The translations under genes were made by a program, and so were the position numbers. From a bacterium (GTDB lineage Bacteria; Verrucomicrobiota; Verrucomicrobiia; Limisphaerales; J093): a DNA stretch of 64,000 nt. Below, piece by piece: positions 92 through 39,468 of the stretch; positions within the stretch are counted from its first letter, which is position 1, and every line of letters starts with the position of its first letter. Location of the stretch: NCBI GenBank assembly GCA_021780105.1, contig JAJXZJ010000052.1:62001-126000 (forward strand), in the 5' to 3' direction. A model generated the notes under the pieces. That model had not been told where the DNA came from and ran no database searches. It was given only the letters and a program-made list of their open reading frames with translations.

Positions 92-1153
92 TTACACCCC
101 GGAAACCTGTTGAGTGATAGATTGCGGTATCAACAACTTGTGCGTCGTCATCGTGGTGATGGCCGCCGAGTTCGCAATGTTGCTGCCGGTGATGCGCATC
201 TGCCCGCCGGCGAGCGCGGTGGCGTCCAGGGGCCACGCGGAGCGCAAAGCGAACGTGTCCGTTTGTGTCATGTCCCCAATCAAGTCGTAGTGTAAAACGC
301 CCAGCCCCGCGTTTGTCATGGGAATAGCCGAGAGCTGGTTCATGTGAACACGAGCCATCGGGGTGTCCCGGAACACCGTTCGACCTTGATACTCAATACC
401 ATACGTGTCGTTGTATTCGTCGGCCAACGACCACGTTCGGGAATATCCCGTTGAGCGGCCCGAACCGTAATCAATGAGGGTAAACCCGGTCAACAGACCA
501 CCTTGCGCAATTTGGTCCAGCGTCACATTCCCGGTTCGCCCCCACGGGAGCGATGTCGTGCGCAGTTCGCTTTTCCAGTGCGGAAAAGTGTTTGTCGGGT
601 CAATAACCGACGCATAGTGGAGAGTTAAATCCAACTTAACTCCTGGGTATGTCAAGTCGGCGGTGAACGTGTTCGCGATTGACGCGCGCGTCGGAATGGA
701 AACATTCAACAGTGGAGGAGTCGCGTAGCGCGGAAGCGGTAGCGCACAGTAGGTCTTGTAAGGTTCGCGCAATTCGGGGTGAGCGAACCAGATGTTATGC
801 TGCATATGGAACCACGTCGCTGCTGTCACGCCCTGCCATGAGAGCGAGTCGTAATCGCGGTTGCCAAAAACCTGCCTCTCATATTCGGCGATACCGGCCC
901 CTTCCGCATTAACACAATCCCGCTTGCCATCTGGGCCTTCATCCACGGTGAGCGTGATATTCCGACACAGCCCGAACAGACAGTCGGGAGCGTAGCCAGA
1001 CACGGCGGAACCGTCGGTTTTAACCGACGCGGAAATGGTCATTCCCTCCAGCCAGAAGCCCCGGTTCGGCAACTGTTTGGAAACGACGGTGCCAAAGTTG
1101 TCCTTTTTACCGTCAGACAACGAGAGTGTATCGGTGAACTTTTTGAAAAGCAT
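92..1153 (-). CDS. Putative double-jelly-roll major capsid protein
   Basis: The 353-residue protein has no signal peptide and is rich in beta-prone segments, aromatic residues, Thr and Ser. The N-terminal part reads like the first strands of PRD1/PM2-type capsomers: a polar stretch, then LPNRGFWLEGMTISASV (about residues 28-44), then a FGLCRNITLTV strand near residue 64. Length fits double-jelly-roll capsid proteins (PM2 P2 about 270, PRD1 P3 about 395). The packaging-type ATPase two to three genes upstream and the intervening single-helix proteins support a capsid role. The family assignment rests on pattern reading and synteny, not on a search. A different beta-rich virion protein, such as a spike, is the alternative. 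The start at 1153 has no strong Shine-Dalgarno. Confidence 0.66.
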   Translation of the reverse strand: MLFKKFTDTLSLSDGKKDNFGTVVSKQLPNRGFWLEGMTISASVKTDGSAVSGYAPDCLFGLCRNITLTVDEGPDGKRDCVNAEGAGIAEYERQVFGNRDYDSLSWQGVTAATWFHMQHNIWFAHPELREPYKTYCALPLPRYATPPLLNVSIPTRASIANTFTADLTYPGVKLDLTLHYASVIDPTNTFPHWKSELRTTSLPWGRTGNVTLDQIAQGGLLTGFTLIDYGSGRSTGYSRTWSLADEYNDTYGIEYQGRTVFRDTPMARVHMNQLSAIPMTNAGLGVLHYDLIGDMTQTDTFALRSAWPLDATALAGGQMRITGSNIANSAAITTMTTHKLLIPQSITQQVSGV

Positions 1154-1499: not shown

Positions 1500-1769
1500 A
1501 TGTTTTATTTTACATCTGCGCCGCCGAGACCGGCCACGGCCACGGCCACCACCGCCACCACCGCGCCGGAGCGGAAGCGAAACCTGCTTGTCATTGACCT
1601 CGACGATCCGGATGAGGAAAGTTTGCGTAAAGCTCACTCGCTCGCCATGAAGAAGCTCTACGCGCGGAAAGGCGGCCGGCCAAAGAAGATCAAATCCTCT
1701 CCAGTCGCGGACGGTTCCGCACAAACCGGAGCCGGTAGCGTTCCGTCTGCAACCGCTCCGTCTGCCTGA
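1500..1769 (+). CDS. Small basic protein with AT-hook-like motif, opposite strand to the viral operon
   Basis: The frame encodes 89 residues: a low-complexity Ala/Thr/Pro N-terminus, an ordered-looking core RNLLVIDLDDPDEESLRKA, then MKKLYARKGGRPKKIK, whose GRPKK resembles an AT-hook or other minor-groove DNA-binding patch. The composition is more protein-like than the competing minus-strand frame (1467-1814), which is rich in Arg, Cys and Trp. Its last 80 bases run antisense to the 3' end of the ATPase gene. It is the only plus-strand gene in the element and faces away from the capsid module, so a regulatory or nucleoid role is possible. That is inference; the gene itself is only moderately secure. 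Confidence 0.48.
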   Translation: MFYFTSAPPRPATATATTATTAPERKRNLLVIDLDDPDEESLRKAHSLAMKKLYARKGGRPKKIKSSPVADGSAQTGAGSVPSATAPSA

Positions 1770-2418
1770 GCAGACAGGTTTTTTCAGGGAGGGAAGCAAC
1801 CTCCCCTTTTTCAAGCCCGCACGTTTCTAAGAAGTCGAGCGCGCGGGTTTCGTTTTGCCGGAACGCGAGGACTTGGTTGAACTGTGAACGAAGCCGATTG
1901 TTCACGAAGTTTGATGCTTGAGCGATGCACAACAGCGAAGTCCGGTAACAGCGTCCGGTTTCGGCTAAACAAGACAACCCGCGTGGAATGTCGCTCCGCG
2001 CGGCTCCCACGAAGTTTTGAAGCTCGTCAATCACGACGAGTTTTTCGCGCGCCGGTCCTTGCGAACACGCGAGAAAAGTCCAGTCCGTGAAAAACTGAAA
2101 CGCGACATCCAGCGAACCTGTGAAGCAGACGTGCGGGTTAAAAACTACCGTTGCACCGCGCTCGAAAGCCGCTTGCATCTGCCCCGGCCGGGAAAGCTGT
2201 CGCGCGGGAAGCCGGAGCGAAAACTCCCCTTTATGGTCGAATACGAATAGTTGACCGGCCGGGTTTTTTTTCTTCCATGAAGTGATCAAGCAAAGGGCGG
2301 CCGATGTTTTTCCGCTCCCGCTGGGTCCGGTGATGAGTGTTCGACGCGTCTCCGCTCGATAGTCTGGTTTCATAAAGTTGCCGGCCGGAGGAATATCACT
2401 CCGGCCGGCGGCGCGCAT
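1690..2418 (-). CDS. Genome-packaging ATPase (FtsK/HerA P-loop superfamily)
   Basis: The 242-residue protein carries a clear P-loop GPSGSGKTSA (Walker A, residues 31-40), the segment VFDHKGEFS (59-67) often seen in HerA/FtsK/VirD4 ATPases, and Walker B LVVIDE (117-122) followed by LQNF. A CIAQASN segment near residue 154 could be the sensor region with its glutamine. The size and minimal single-domain layout match the packaging ATPases of PRD1 (P9) and PM2-like viruses, which pump DNA into a preformed capsid. It lies upstream of the membrane peptides and capsid gene. An internal ATG (codon 16, at 2373) is an alternative start; neither start has a good ribosome-binding site. Confidence 0.8.
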   Translation of the reverse strand: MRAAGRSDIPPAGNFMKPDYRAETRRTLITGPSGSGKTSAALCLITSWKKKNPAGQLFVFDHKGEFSLRLPARQLSRPGQMQAAFERGATVVFNPHVCFTGSLDVAFQFFTDWTFLACSQGPAREKLVVIDELQNFVGAARSDIPRGLSCLAETGRCYRTSLLCIAQASNFVNNRLRSQFNQVLAFRQNETRALDFLETCGLEKGEVASLPEKTCLLRQTERLQTERYRLRFVRNRPRLERI

Positions 2419-2451: not shown

Positions 2452-3192
2452 TTATGTTTTCGCGGACGGGGCGGCCGGTTTCTGCAGGCAAGAAAGCTCG
2501 ATCAACTGGCCGGCGACTGCGGTCGCTGACGGAGCATCTACCACTTCGGCAACCAGCTTTGACACCTGGGCGAGAACTCCTTTTTCGGCTTGGTGTTGGA
2601 TAAGCCAGCTTTTGAAGCGTTCACCGGCGAGTTGTCCTTGCTGGGTTTCGATGAGCTTCCGCGCAACTTCCACACCCTGCGCGAGCGCGGTTGAAACTTT
2701 ATTTGCTTGTTTGCTGCGGAGTGTTCCCCACAGCCCAAAAACAGCCCCAATTCCAACGGAAATCACGTCTCCCCACACCGGCACCGCACTCGCGACGTTC
2801 TGTGCGAGTTGAACCGACGGGGCAGGGGAGTAGGTATAAAGCTCGTTGGTGGTGACGACTGGAACGCTCTGGGTGGTGCCGCTCACCACCGGAACGCTCT
2901 GGGTGGTGAGCGTTACCACCGGAACAGTGGAAGTGAACACGCCGGATGGTGAGGACACCACCACCGGCGCGAAGTTCGTCGTCGTGGTGACGACTGGCGC
3001 GAAGTTCGTCGTCGTGGTGACGACTGGCGCGAAGTTCGTCGTCGTGGTCCGGTTCGTTTCGATGGTGAACAGCTTTTGTTCCAACCTCGTGGGGCCGGGA
3101 CTTCCGCAGCCGGAAAGTAAAAAAAGCCCGCACACCGCCGCAAGCGCGGCGGCGGCGGGCATCGGTGTGGTGGGGCGCGAAAGTTTCATCAC
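2452..3192 (-). CDS. Repeat-containing lipoprotein with C-terminal membrane/helical domain
   Basis: This 246-residue protein starts with a lipoprotein signal peptide ending in the lipobox FLLSGC (Cys near residue 29). Residues about 48-115 are Thr/Val repeats: three copies of TTTTNFAPVV and two of TQSVPVV, encoded by 30-bp DNA repeats. A hydrophobic glycine-containing segment VWGDVISVGIGAVFGLWGTL follows near residues 138-158. A charged helical tail ends the protein. The start ATG overlaps the stop of the upstream gene. A lipid-anchored protein in a tailless-virus operon could be a receptor-binding, membrane-remodelling, superinfection-exclusion or lysis protein; the sequence does not decide. 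Confidence 0.7.
   Translation of the reverse strand: MMKLSRPTTPMPAAAALAAVCGLFLLSGCGSPGPTRLEQKLFTIETNRTTTTNFAPVVTTTTNFAPVVTTTTNFAPVVVSSPSGVFTSTVPVVTLTTQSVPVVSGTTQSVPVVTTNELYTYSPAPSVQLAQNVASAVPVWGDVISVGIGAVFGLWGTLRSKQANKVSTALAQGVEVARKLIETQQGQLAGERFKSWLIQHQAEKGVLAQVSKLVAEVVDAPSATAVAGQLIELSCLQKPAAPSAKT
2861..3048. repeat. In-frame 30-bp tandem repeats inside the lipoprotein gene
   Basis: Two related repeat blocks with the same 30-bp period (10 codons) are visible. GGAACGCTCTGGGTGGTG begins at 2861 and 2891, with a diverged third start at 2921. GAAGTTCGTCGTCGTGGTGA begins at 2971, 3001 and 3031, the last copy truncated. The period keeps the reading frame, so copy-number change would alter protein length without disrupting it. 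Confidence 0.85.
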
Positions 3193-4370: not shown

Positions 4371-5195
4371 TCAATCGGACAACGTTTCTCCCTTCCAAAA
4401 GGTTTCCAGCACGGCTGCCCGGCTCGCTACCGGCTTCGATCTCGACAAGCGGGCTTCCAACTTGCAAACACAGTAGGCGACCTTCCCAAGGTCCACTTGG
4501 CAGCGTTTTCCCCATTTCCCAGCGTCGTTCGTGAACTCGTCGCCCAGCAGCCGTCGAAGTCTCCCCATGTATCGCTTTCCAAGTCCGGCGTCCTGACTCG
4601 AACCTTTAGAAGCAGCTTGCATTTCCTCGTTTCCTTCTGTCGAGCGAAGCGAGCGCGATTGTTCCTTTCCTTCTTTCCCGCCGCGAAGCGGCCCGCTGTG
4701 CAAAGAATCCCGCTTCGCGGAAAGATTTGGAGAGAGAACCCTTTTCCTGATAAGGGATGGACTACATTTTAGCCCAGAATCCGGGCTAGTTTTTAGCCCA
4801 GAATCCGGGCTAGTTTTTAGCCCGGAAGCGTCAAATAAAAGAGTCAACCGGGAGAGGTAAAACCACCCCCGGCGGAAAGCCCACTCCTGTTGAAAGGAAA
4901 TCAAACCGGAAGCTTGGAGTTGAAGCCGGTAGGCCCGCTGGGTCATGCGTGCCCGTCCGGTTTCGCGCTCGATGTCGCGCTCGGAGTGCTCGAAAGAGTC
5001 GCCCCCGGAGCGGCGGGCACGCTCCGCGTAGTGCTTCAAGAGACAGAACGCGCCGGAGGAGATGGCTCGCGCGGAGAGCGCCGCCTCCGCGCGGAGCCAG
5101 AACGCACGGAGGCGGCGGTGTTGATCAATAATTTCTGCCGTTTGCACAGTGGGATCTTTCCTTTTCAGACCGTGCAAACGCGTGACTTTGCTCAC
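4371..5195 (-). CDS. Putative replication initiator with N-terminal winged helix and internal origin
   Basis: The 274-residue protein begins at a GTG (5195). Residues about 45-115 (AISSGAFCLLKHYAERARR through ERETGRARMTQRAYRLQLQA) look like a winged helix-turn-helix of the kind found in plasmid and phage initiators. Residues about 123-146 are an eight-residue repeat SGLKTSPD encoded by 24-bp palindromic iterons. A Lys/Arg-rich linker and a C-terminal helical domain follow. The layout (DNA-binding domain, iterons inside the gene, C-terminal domain) parallels lambda O. The start overlaps the previous gene by 71 bases; a GTG at 5147 preceded by AAAGGAAAGA is an attractive alternative. A transcription regulator is the other possibility. 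Confidence 0.58.
   Translation of the reverse strand: MSKVTRLHGLKRKDPTVQTAEIIDQHRRLRAFWLRAEAALSARAISSGAFCLLKHYAERARRSGGDSFEHSERDIERETGRARMTQRAYRLQLQASGLISFQQEWAFRRGWFYLSRLTLLFDASGLKTSPDSGLKTSPDSGLKCSPSLIRKRVLSPNLSAKRDSLHSGPLRGGKEGKEQSRSLRSTEGNEEMQAASKGSSQDAGLGKRYMGRLRRLLGDEFTNDAGKWGKRCQVDLGKVAYCVCKLEARLSRSKPVASRAAVLETFWKGETLSD
4767..4823. repeat. Iteron-like 24-bp palindromic repeats, candidate replication origin
   Basis: The unit TTTTAGCCCAGAATCCGGG plus CTAG starts at 4767 and again at 4791, and a third, partial unit (TTTTAGCCC) starts at 4815; the period is exactly 24 bp. Each full copy contains the inverted half-sites TAGCCC and GGGCTA seven bases apart (4770-4788 and 4794-4812). The repeats sit in the middle of the putative replication gene and keep frame. 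Tandem palindromic repeats inside an initiator gene are the classic form of a phage origin. Confidence 0.6.
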
Positions 5196-6097: not shown

Positions 6098-6244
6098 AGA
6101 GCCAACCCGCCGGCCGGCACAGCGAAGACCCGGAGCTACCGGGCACGCGTATTACGCACAATGTTTGTTATATTTAATAAAGTTTCGTCGCGGTTTGCAC
6201 CCCTCGATGGCTGATCGCTTGAATCGTCAACCCGGTTCTGAACC
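6098..6244. other. Junction between viral region and chromosome, AT-rich
   Basis: This non-coding stretch contains an AT-rich island (about 6161-6184, TTGTTATATTTAATAAAG), a plausible site for divergent promoters of the leftward viral operon and the rightward glycosylase gene. A short inverted repeat CCCGG-AGCTA-CCGGG lies at 6129-6143. No tRNA, integrase or obvious attachment repeat is visible; the partner repeat would be outside the window. Confidence 0.35.
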
Positions 6245-9021: not shown

Positions 9022-10440
9022 TTAAACTTGTTTCGTCATGGCCATGCCGAGCCGGAGGAGCGCTCGCGCCCCGGCCTCGGTCGCCGCCTCCGCGTAGATG
9101 CGGAGGATGGGCTCGGTGCCGGAGCCGCGGAGCATCAGCCAGGCGCCGTCCCGCGCCACGTATTTCACGCCGTCGAACGATTTCACCTCGGCCACCGGCG
9201 ACCGCAGCAGCCGCGCCGGCGGGTTGGCCTGACAGAACGCCATGAGCGCCGCGCGTTTTTCCAGCGGGAAATGCGTGTCAACGCGCGCATACCGGTGCGG
9301 CCCGAATTCCCGCTCCAGGCCCGTCAGCAACCGCGTGATGGGTTTGCGTTCCATCGCCAGCATTTCCAGCAGCAGCAGCCCGGCGGCGATGCCATCGCGC
9401 TCGGGAATGTGGCCGGGAAAACCGATGCCCCCGCTTTCCTCCGCGCCCAGCAGCACACCGCCCTTCATCATCTCCGCGCAGATGTATTTGAATCCGACGC
9501 CGGTTTCGAGCAACGGCAGGTTCCACGCGGCGCACATTTTGTCCACCATCGAAGTCGCCGTCAGCGCCTTGACCACGCGGCCGGTGCCGTGCCGGTTGCG
9601 GACAAAATGCCGCAGCAACAGGCAAATTAGTTGATGCGTGGTGAGCGGGTTGCCGCGGCCGTCCATGCCGCCCACGCGGTCGGCGTCGCCGTCGGTCACG
9701 AGGCACACGTCATGCGGATGCCTGCGAAGGTAGGCGCTGCTCGGGCCGTAGTTGAGCGCGATCGGCTCCGGGTTGATGCCGCCGAAGTTGGGATCGTGGT
9801 TCCCGTTCAACGTGGTCACGCGACACGTCGTGCCGGCGAGCAGTTCGTCGAAGCAATACGCGCCGACCCCGAACAGCGCGTCGTGGGCGAACCGCAATTT
9901 CGATGCGGCGACCAGCTTGAAATCCGCCAGTTTTTTCACGGCGCGATAATGCGCCGGCCGCAGGTTTCGCACCGTCACGCGGCCTGCCGCCTTGGCCTCG
10001 GCCAACGGCATCCGGCGGACCGGATTCGCATCCAGCCGCGCTTCCACCGCCTGGCAAATCGCCGGCTCGGCTGAGCCGCCATACCAGCCCTTGAGCTTGA
10101 ATCCATTGAACGCCGCCGGATTGTGGCTCGCGGTGATCACCACGCCGCCCACCGCCTGTTGTGCCTTCACGGCGAGCGAGATCGCCGGCGTCGGCGTTGG
10201 ATCGGGCGTGAGCGTCACCCACAGACCATTGGCCGCGAGCACCTCGGCGGTCCGCTGCGCGAAGCGGTCCGACGCGAACCGCCGGTCGTAGCCCACGACC
10301 ACCGCCGGTTTCGTGCCGGGCGCCGGCTCCGCGTTCCAATAGTCCGCGGCGGCCTGCGCCACACGCTCGACGTTGGCAAACGTGAAGTCCTCGGCGATGA
10401 CCGCCCGCCAGCCGTCCGTTCCGAATTTGATCTGGTTCAT
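9022..10440 (-). CDS. Phosphoglucomutase/phosphomannomutase family protein
   Basis: An alpha-D-phosphohexomutase of about 472 residues that interconverts hexose 1- and 6-phosphates. All four family signatures are visible: the phosphoserine loop VVITASHNPAAFNGFK, the metal loop VTDGDADRVGG, the sugar-binding loop AEESGGIGFPGH and the phosphate-binding RGSGTEPILRIY near the C-terminus. The start FGTDGWRA after MNQIK is typical. The ATG overlaps the stop of rpe upstream (ATGA), so both are translated together. Substrate preference (glucose, mannose or glucosamine) cannot be read from the sequence. Confidence 0.93.
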   Translation of the reverse strand: MNQIKFGTDGWRAVIAEDFTFANVERVAQAAADYWNAEPAPGTKPAVVVGYDRRFASDRFAQRTAEVLAANGLWVTLTPDPTPTPAISLAVKAQQAVGGVVITASHNPAAFNGFKLKGWYGGSAEPAICQAVEARLDANPVRRMPLAEAKAAGRVTVRNLRPAHYRAVKKLADFKLVAASKLRFAHDALFGVGAYCFDELLAGTTCRVTTLNGNHDPNFGGINPEPIALNYGPSSAYLRRHPHDVCLVTDGDADRVGGMDGRGNPLTTHQLICLLLRHFVRNRHGTGRVVKALTATSMVDKMCAAWNLPLLETGVGFKYICAEMMKGGVLLGAEESGGIGFPGHIPERDGIAAGLLLLEMLAMERKPITRLLTGLEREFGPHRYARVDTHFPLEKRAALMAFCQANPPARLLRSPVAEVKSFDGVKYVARDGAWLMLRGSGTEPILRIYAEAATEAGARALLRLGMAMTKQV

Positions 10441-38362: not shown

Positions 38363-39468
38363 ACCCAACCCCGAAGACCGACTTGTCCCGGCTGCAAGTC
38401 TTCCCGCTCGCGGAACGACAAAGTCTGACGACGCTGTCCGACGTGCTCGTCGAACCATCCGACGCGCCGCCGGCCGTCAGTGATGCACTGGCAAACACAA
38501 TTGGCGACTGTGCCCGCAACATCCACGCCGCCCTGGCGCGTCGCGCCTCCGTGATGGTGATTTATGGCGCGCATCTCATCAAAAACGGCGGCCAGCTTCT
38601 GCTCGTGCAGATGCTTGACCACGGTTGGGTCAGCCACCTTGCGACCAACGGCGCGGGCACGATTCACGACTGGGAATTCTCCTGGCTCGGCCGCTCGACG
38701 GAAAGCGTCCGCGCGAACGTCGCCACCGGAACCTTTGGCACCTGGGACGAAACCGGCCGCAACATTCATCTCGCGCTGCTCATCGGCGGCATCAATGGCG
38801 AGGGCTACGGCCGCGCGCTGGGCCGGTTCATTTACCAGGACGGCGGCCTGCTGCCGGCGCCGGAAGAACTGGAGCGACAAATCCGCGCGGAGCCGGCGAA
38901 CCCGTTGACACCCGCCCGCGCCGACCTGCTCCTCGCCCTGCGCCAGCACGGACTCGCGCCAGGGCGTTTGCTGCTGAATCATCAATGGCGGAACGCCTCG
39001 CCGCTGGCCAACGCCTTCCGCCATGACGTGCCGTTCACCGCGCATCCGGGCATCGGCTACGACATCATCACGAACCATCCGATGTTCAACGGCGCCGTCA
39101 TCGGCCGCGCGGCCGGGCTCGATTTCCGCCGGTTTGTCGAGTCTGTGGAATCACTCGACGGCGGCGTGGTGCTGTCCATCGGCTCCGCGATCATGGGGCC
39201 GCAGGTTTTCGAAAAATCGTTGAGCTGCGTGAACAACCTTCGCCTGCAGGCCGGCCGGCCCATCGTCAGCGGCCACTCCATCTACGTCGTGGACCTGCAG
39301 GATGGCGGCGGCTGGGACTGGACGAAAGGCGAGCCGCCGCGGGACAACCCGGCCTACTACCTCCGATTCTGCAAGAGCTATTCGCGCATGGGCGGCGCCA
39401 TGCACTATGTTCAGTGCGACAATGTCACGTTCCTGCACCATCTTTTCCACGCGCTGCGCCGGCTCTGA
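38359..39468 (+). CDS. Conserved protein of unknown function, Rossmann-like, in HAD-PfkB cassette
   Basis: 369 residues without signal or membrane helix. Glycine- and histidine-rich segments suggest an enzyme: VMVIYGAHLIKNGGQLLLVQ, HLATNGAGTIHDWEF, TGTFGTWDETGR, FTAHPGIGYDIITNHP and VVLSIGSAIMGPQVF. The order of the first two segments is distantly reminiscent of deoxyhypusine-synthase-like proteins, but I could not confirm this. Translation is coupled to the HAD gene by ATGA. Role is probably linked to the HAD and PfkB products. Confidence 0.78.
   Translation: MNPTPKTDLSRLQVFPLAERQSLTTLSDVLVEPSDAPPAVSDALANTIGDCARNIHAALARRASVMVIYGAHLIKNGGQLLLVQMLDHGWVSHLATNGAGTIHDWEFSWLGRSTESVRANVATGTFGTWDETGRNIHLALLIGGINGEGYGRALGRFIYQDGGLLPAPEELERQIRAEPANPLTPARADLLLALRQHGLAPGRLLLNHQWRNASPLANAFRHDVPFTAHPGIGYDIITNHPMFNGAVIGRAAGLDFRRFVESVESLDGGVVLSIGSAIMGPQVFEKSLSCVNNLRLQAGRPIVSGHSIYVVDLQDGGGWDWTKGEPPRDNPAYYLRFCKSYSRMGGAMHYVQCDNVTFLHHLFHALRRL

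Follow-up and report, generated by a model that had tools for sequence, protein, structure and literature searches.

A palindromic array within an initiator gene, the probable replication origin of a tailless double-jelly-roll provirus

Three 24-bp units lie on the minus strand (4756-4826) of the 64,000-nucleotide stretch of bacterial DNA analysed here (the window), inside a 274-codon gene (4371-5195). This array is probably the replication origin of a temperate, tailless double-jelly-roll (DJR) phage of ~10 kb, located inside the initiator gene as in phage lambda. The units are palindromic, they occupy the same position in related genes, they are conserved at the DNA level despite changed letters and frame phase, and the AT content rises downstream of them. 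From these features we infer that the initiator binds the array and that the array has origin activity.

The GGGCTA/TAGCCC hexamers of the array repeat in a 24-bp register (4759-4830). Searching the window for GGGCTA-N5-TAGCCC with at most one mismatch yielded three matches, all in the array, while 100 dinucleotide shuffles gave a mean of 0.07 and no shuffle reached three. The exact motif occurred at two sites in the 4.55-Mb assembly, both in the array, and the backwards-read control at none. The sequence-only reading had proposed two complete 24-bp units and a partial third, with 6-bp arms; the units were found where it had placed them, but the arms are 9 bp long and the third unit is degenerate (Table 1). 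The ATCCCTTATC at the array end is possibly the start of an unwinding region.

Table 1. Features of the provirus and its initiator gene in the window
Feature	Position	Strand	Details and evidence
Major capsid protein, double jelly-roll	92-1153	-	AlphaFold2 on 9 sequences and Foldseek
Packaging ATPase	1690-2418	-	phrog_2666, E 6e-12
Initiator (Rep-like) gene	4371-5195	-	274 codons, GTG start, holds the array; ORF; homologues P0002 (G012) and P0004 (G467)
Predicted helical C-terminal domain	4386-4592	-	Codons 202-270; AlphaFold2 model; kept in G467, separate ORF in G012
Linker holding the array	4593-4835	-	Codons 121-201; low confidence, presumably disordered; pLDDT <50, residues 125-202
ATCCCTTATC, array end	4749-4758	-	Same sequence at the corresponding place in G012
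Iteron 3	4756-4778	-	Degenerate, 6/9 Watson-Crick pairs, spacer AAATG
Iteron 2	4780-4802	-	8/9 pairs, spacer AAAAC
Iteron 1	4804-4826	-	Perfect dyad, 9-bp arms, 5-bp spacer AAAAC
Predicted winged helix-turn-helix (H-E-H-H-E-E)	4839-5057	-	Codons 47-119; AlphaFold2 model
dif-like site (presumed)	6151-6178	+	Right end of the provirus; holds the 15-bp direct repeat CGCACAATGTTTGTT (6155-6169)

The array units encode the octapeptide SGLKTSPD twice and one variant of it; translation and the AlphaFold2 model agree with the earlier reading that this eight-residue repeat lies between two predicted domains. Among 55,296 synonymous codings of SGLKTSPD, 1,344 give at least 8/9 pairs in this register. The test on the unit gave p=0.048, and gene-wide shuffling of synonymous codons p=0.042 for the palindromes of the window gene. 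With respect to selection on DNA rather than protein, the window alone is suggestive and not decisive. Because these protein-fixed tests are modest, the weight of the case comes from the relatives.

The initiator gene sits in a 10,027-bp provirus, a dormant tailless phage. Both a DJR capsid protein and a packaging ATPase, the two marks of a double-jelly-roll virus, are encoded by the provirus, and the capsid model matched PR772/PRD1 P3 in Foldseek (E 7e-12 to 2e-11). A second copy of CGCACAATGTTTGTT is located at C8:58128 (L008 8123-8142), beyond the window, and the direct repeat at both flanks implies a circle of 10,027 bp. The site at the right end appears dif-like by the general dif consensus, which suggests that integration was Xer-mediated. 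Two tandem TTGTTCACA, resembling DnaA boxes, lie just inside the left end (L008 8172-8191, C8, beyond the window); no further copies were found in L008 or the window. GC skew, put forward in the earlier reading as a check, gave no origin signal and was uninformative.

The same reading had recognized a winged helix at the N-terminus of the protein. This fold was predicted with fair confidence (ten-residue pLDDT means of 68-87, residues 21-100) in an AlphaFold2 model built from a three-sequence alignment. Foldseek listed winged-helix proteins, none below E 0.04. The initiator had no match in Pfam up to E 5 and none to the lambda O family (PF04492/phrog_277), and hhalign with lambda O gave a probability of 0.14 percent. 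Its sole profile match was a weak one to replication proteins (phrog_270, E 0.022). The initiator of G464, one of the related genomes described below, matches phrog_186 (E 1.5e-4; replication protein, DnaD-like/replisome-organiser test), and the window gene has no such match. The C-terminal domain is fused in the window and G467 and forms its own ORF in G012 (L009, where the contig ends). We also observed that CGCTYCGCTC, encoding SLRS, recurs in-gene 3' of arrays (window 4642-4651, L056, L063 and others).

Palindromes and winged-helix proteins are typical of repressors, and the Foldseek list contains many such regulators, weakly matched. The units could thus be operators for autorepression or for repression of an antisense transcript, with the origin elsewhere. 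However, the sites lie hundreds of bases into the gene, number up to nine units and are followed by AT-richer DNA, and the profile matches to phrog_270 and phrog_186, weak as they are, point to replication proteins. We consider operators an unlikely explanation and favour a replication origin.

A protein search of 58 related genomes returned one true homologue of the window initiator, on contig 276 of G012 (JAKANS010000157.1; 14,255 bp), whose overlapping ends indicate that it is probably circular. When 320 genomes of the order were scanned with the ATPase profile, 27 contained elements, among them the genome of the window; 30 regions around the ATPase matches were taken for comparison, and capsid homologues were present in nine of 32 loci searched. 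G467 provided a third homologue. Iterated profile search linked a second set of winged-helix genes that are related to one another (G053, G618, G607, G630, G486, G599 and G464); most of them lie ~2 kb upstream of the ATPase. The initiator of G693 was found by profile/protein search alone, and its ATPase is on another contig. No winged-helix initiator was identified in the remaining loci, several of which end at contig edges; L052 and L061 carry other replication genes, as judged by eye. The weak matches L004, L005 and L010 were judged on reading to be host genes and were dropped, and the A5 matches L077-L083, examined by ORF filter alone, are outside the array counts. Elsewhere, viral_contigs held no close relatives with P0001, A2, A3 or A5, tblastn of the phages collection gave no match to P0001 or P0004, and the winged-helix profile A8 had no matches in 387 genomes of the phylum, a sample without a known positive for A8. 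One locus (L065 4522-4903; G479 contig 442) contains six palindrome-bearing repeats in ~71-bp steps with unique spacers, a CRISPR-like array at a distance of about 1 kb from the gene for the packaging ATPase.

Palindrome arrays were present in ten of the 11 initiator genes examined, at the same place (3' of the winged helix), with different arm letters and a spacing of mostly 22-24 bp. In G012 three 9-5-9 dyads, TCTGCCGTA-AAAAG-TACGGCAGA and two variants, occur at 48- and 24-bp steps and encode SAVKSTAE. Compared with the window, both sides of the arms have changed together, so that pairing was kept. G467 carries nine palindrome units with a period of 22 bp; this period shifts the frame at each unit, and thus the octapeptide repeat is gone while the DNA repeat is retained. 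Arrays with a 24-bp period were found in G053, G618, G607, G630, G486 and G693, and units in a 23-bp step in G464; the exception was G599 with a single degenerate unit. The palindromes of G618 and G607 are poor (p=0.18 and 0.35) and without an A-tract. Reading of ORFs or a repeat scan brought six of the ten arrays to notice (G464, G618, G630, G053, G607 and G486); where the gene itself was first detected by protein search (G012, G467, G599 and G693), three of four had arrays.

The sequence-only reading had asked for conservation of the repeats as DNA and not as protein. This is what the relatives display, since the palindromes persist where the protein repeat changes (G012) or vanishes (G467). 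The pattern that it had named as refuting, a protein repeat kept while palindromes are lost, was looked for in the relatives and not seen; the opposite was found.

These data also bear on whether the units arose by plain tandem duplication of a disordered linker, the palindromes being due to chance or codon bias. The same provirus does have further tandem repeats of 30 bp within genes that look structural, at 2452-3192 (minus strand) and L008 ~9,400-9,600, and the synonymous tests on the window alone gave modest values (p ~0.04). However, the palindromy of those 30-bp repeats was not significant against shuffles, and palindromic arrays with differing letters occur in ten of 11 initiator genes. 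The repeat of G467 moreover breaks the reading frame, which disfavours duplication of a linker. We regard this explanation as very improbable, and a replication origin accounts better for the arrays.

In tests across genes, the palindrome score of the consensus unit exceeded that of shuffles at p≤0.022 in six of nine arrays (Fisher 1.7e-7), whereas with the same score five tandem arrays taken from other genes at these loci all stayed at or above 0.05. G693 gave p=0.058. The consensus of G464 rests on 1.1 copies, owing to cutting; without G464 and the window the combined p was 6.4e-6. Synonymous shuffling was significant (p<0.05) in four of six initiator genes: the window, G012 (0.002), G467 (0.001) and G464 (0.021), but not in G618 (0.19) and G630 (1.0). 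The sole significant control gene was the ATPase of the window (p=0.005, two ORF lengths counted). A cruder generic dyad count was discarded because controls scored too, so that initiator genes could not be told apart from them.

In ten of ten genes tested, AT content over the 30 bases 3' of the last unit exceeded that of the gene, the last units being picked by hand; in the window the rise is small (0.53 versus 0.42; rank 0.21 among the 30-mers of the gene). In six loci (L045, L056, L063, L066, L067 and L093) we saw an AT-rich stretch after the array and then a small hairpin (for example TTCCTTTCAGGAA or CTCCCTTCGGGAG), with stems that differ between phages; it may be a further origin element. 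As a feature shared after the AT tract, the hairpin was seen by eye and registered poorly in the alignment, and we make no such claim. The idea of a GCGAAGC mini-hairpin was dropped, as this motif occurs widely in the loci.

Each DNA dyad also yields a hairpin in the transcript, and the palindromes might therefore act in the mRNA, slowing or regulating translation or transcription of the initiator, rather than as DNA sites. On the coding strand of the ten arrays, G-T mismatches outnumber A-C mismatches (20 versus 8), which is the direction expected for RNA pairing, but a few units present in identical copies account for much of this excess. Regular spacing of 22-24 bp, A-tracts and a downstream AT rise answer no obvious RNA need, and in lambda the same iteron layout is a proven DNA-binding site (PMC7466680). 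An action in the mRNA thus seems improbable to us, and we return to the array as an origin on DNA.

In lambda, the origin is located centrally in gene O and is made up of inverted-repeat iterons and an AT-rich tract (PMC7466680). In the lambda sequence (J02459, annotated 39034-39118) the iterons read TCCCTC-AAAAC-GAGGGA with variants, at 20, 24 and 23 bp. In the dyad comparison of the arrays, the lambda rows fell one base out of register and were excluded. The array and the lambda origin share palindromic iterons within the initiator gene, after the (in the window, predicted) DNA-binding domain; in both, the inverted repeats are imperfect, surround AAAAC and are spaced at 20-24 bp. AT-richer DNA follows downstream in each, but the AT tract of lambda is far richer and the rise in the window is small. 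Unlike the window provirus, lambda is a tailed phage, its initiator belongs to PF04492/phrog_277 and its iterons do not keep the frame. The lambda-O-style plan of the earlier reading was thus borne out as an architecture (central iterons, A-tract, 20-24 bp, with a small downstream AT rise) with a putative origin function, and the protein, as judged from its sequence, is lambda-O-like in layout only.

A similar plan is described for phage SPP1, whose gp38 binds repeats in its own gene 38 (oriL), beside an AT-rich unwinding element (PMC6316719). SPP1 is a tailed phage and its repeats are described as direct; we compare it by description and not by sequence. Origins embedded in initiator genes are thus of a known kind (lambda, SPP1). 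What appears to be new is the recurrence of this layout in tailless DJR proviruses, with an initiator lacking detectable homology to lambda O.

Close parallels to the provirus include the prophages of Vinavirales, which are tailless, DJR and ~10 kb in size, with DnaD-like winged-HTH initiators listed among replication genes that are often replaced (PMC9502842); embedded origins are not described in its main-text passages. The corticovirus PM2 and PM2-like prophages resemble the provirus in capsid/ATPase plan, genome size and occurrence of several replication types (PMC1950889), but PM2 has a rolling-circle initiator, unlike the type proposed here. The word 'iteron' is absent from the main texts, supplements aside, of PMC9502842, PMC5894146, PMC8812541 and PMC1950889. 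A literature search combining tailless phage, iteron and origin of replication found no paper, and in the passages and searches consulted we met no tailless prophage with a winged-helix initiator whose origin has been mapped.

If the array is an origin, the winged-helix domain would bind each palindromic unit as a pair of protomers that contact one arm apiece, on either side of the A-tract. Bound and bent in this way, the array would then melt the AT-richer DNA just downstream within the gene, and the C-terminal domain would recruit the host helicase or a helicase loader, after which theta replication would start. A point against an origin is that a 24-bp step does not correspond to an integral number of helical turns. 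Private arm letters would be expected to restrict each initiator to the origin of its own phage.

We tentatively extend this to the tailless DJR prophages of one bacterial order, which may use embedded lambda-style origins with palindrome letters private to each phage, an idea to which we give somewhat less than even weight. If true, the diversified arms would create plasmid-like incompatibility groups, and such groups would explain the frequent replacement of replication modules in these phages. The private arm letters fit the proposal in PMC9502842 that module replacement may reflect incompatibility, and this driver becomes directly testable. A plan of arm, A-tract and arm without initiator homology would mean that the design either originated repeatedly or outlived sequence similarity. 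The arrays also illustrate clearly how sites in the DNA can take precedence over the encoded protein within a gene. The 11 genes are concrete, testable origin candidates for tailless prophages, and because a constant plan is combined with arms that vary from phage to phage, the specificity of initiator for iteron can be swapped and measured.
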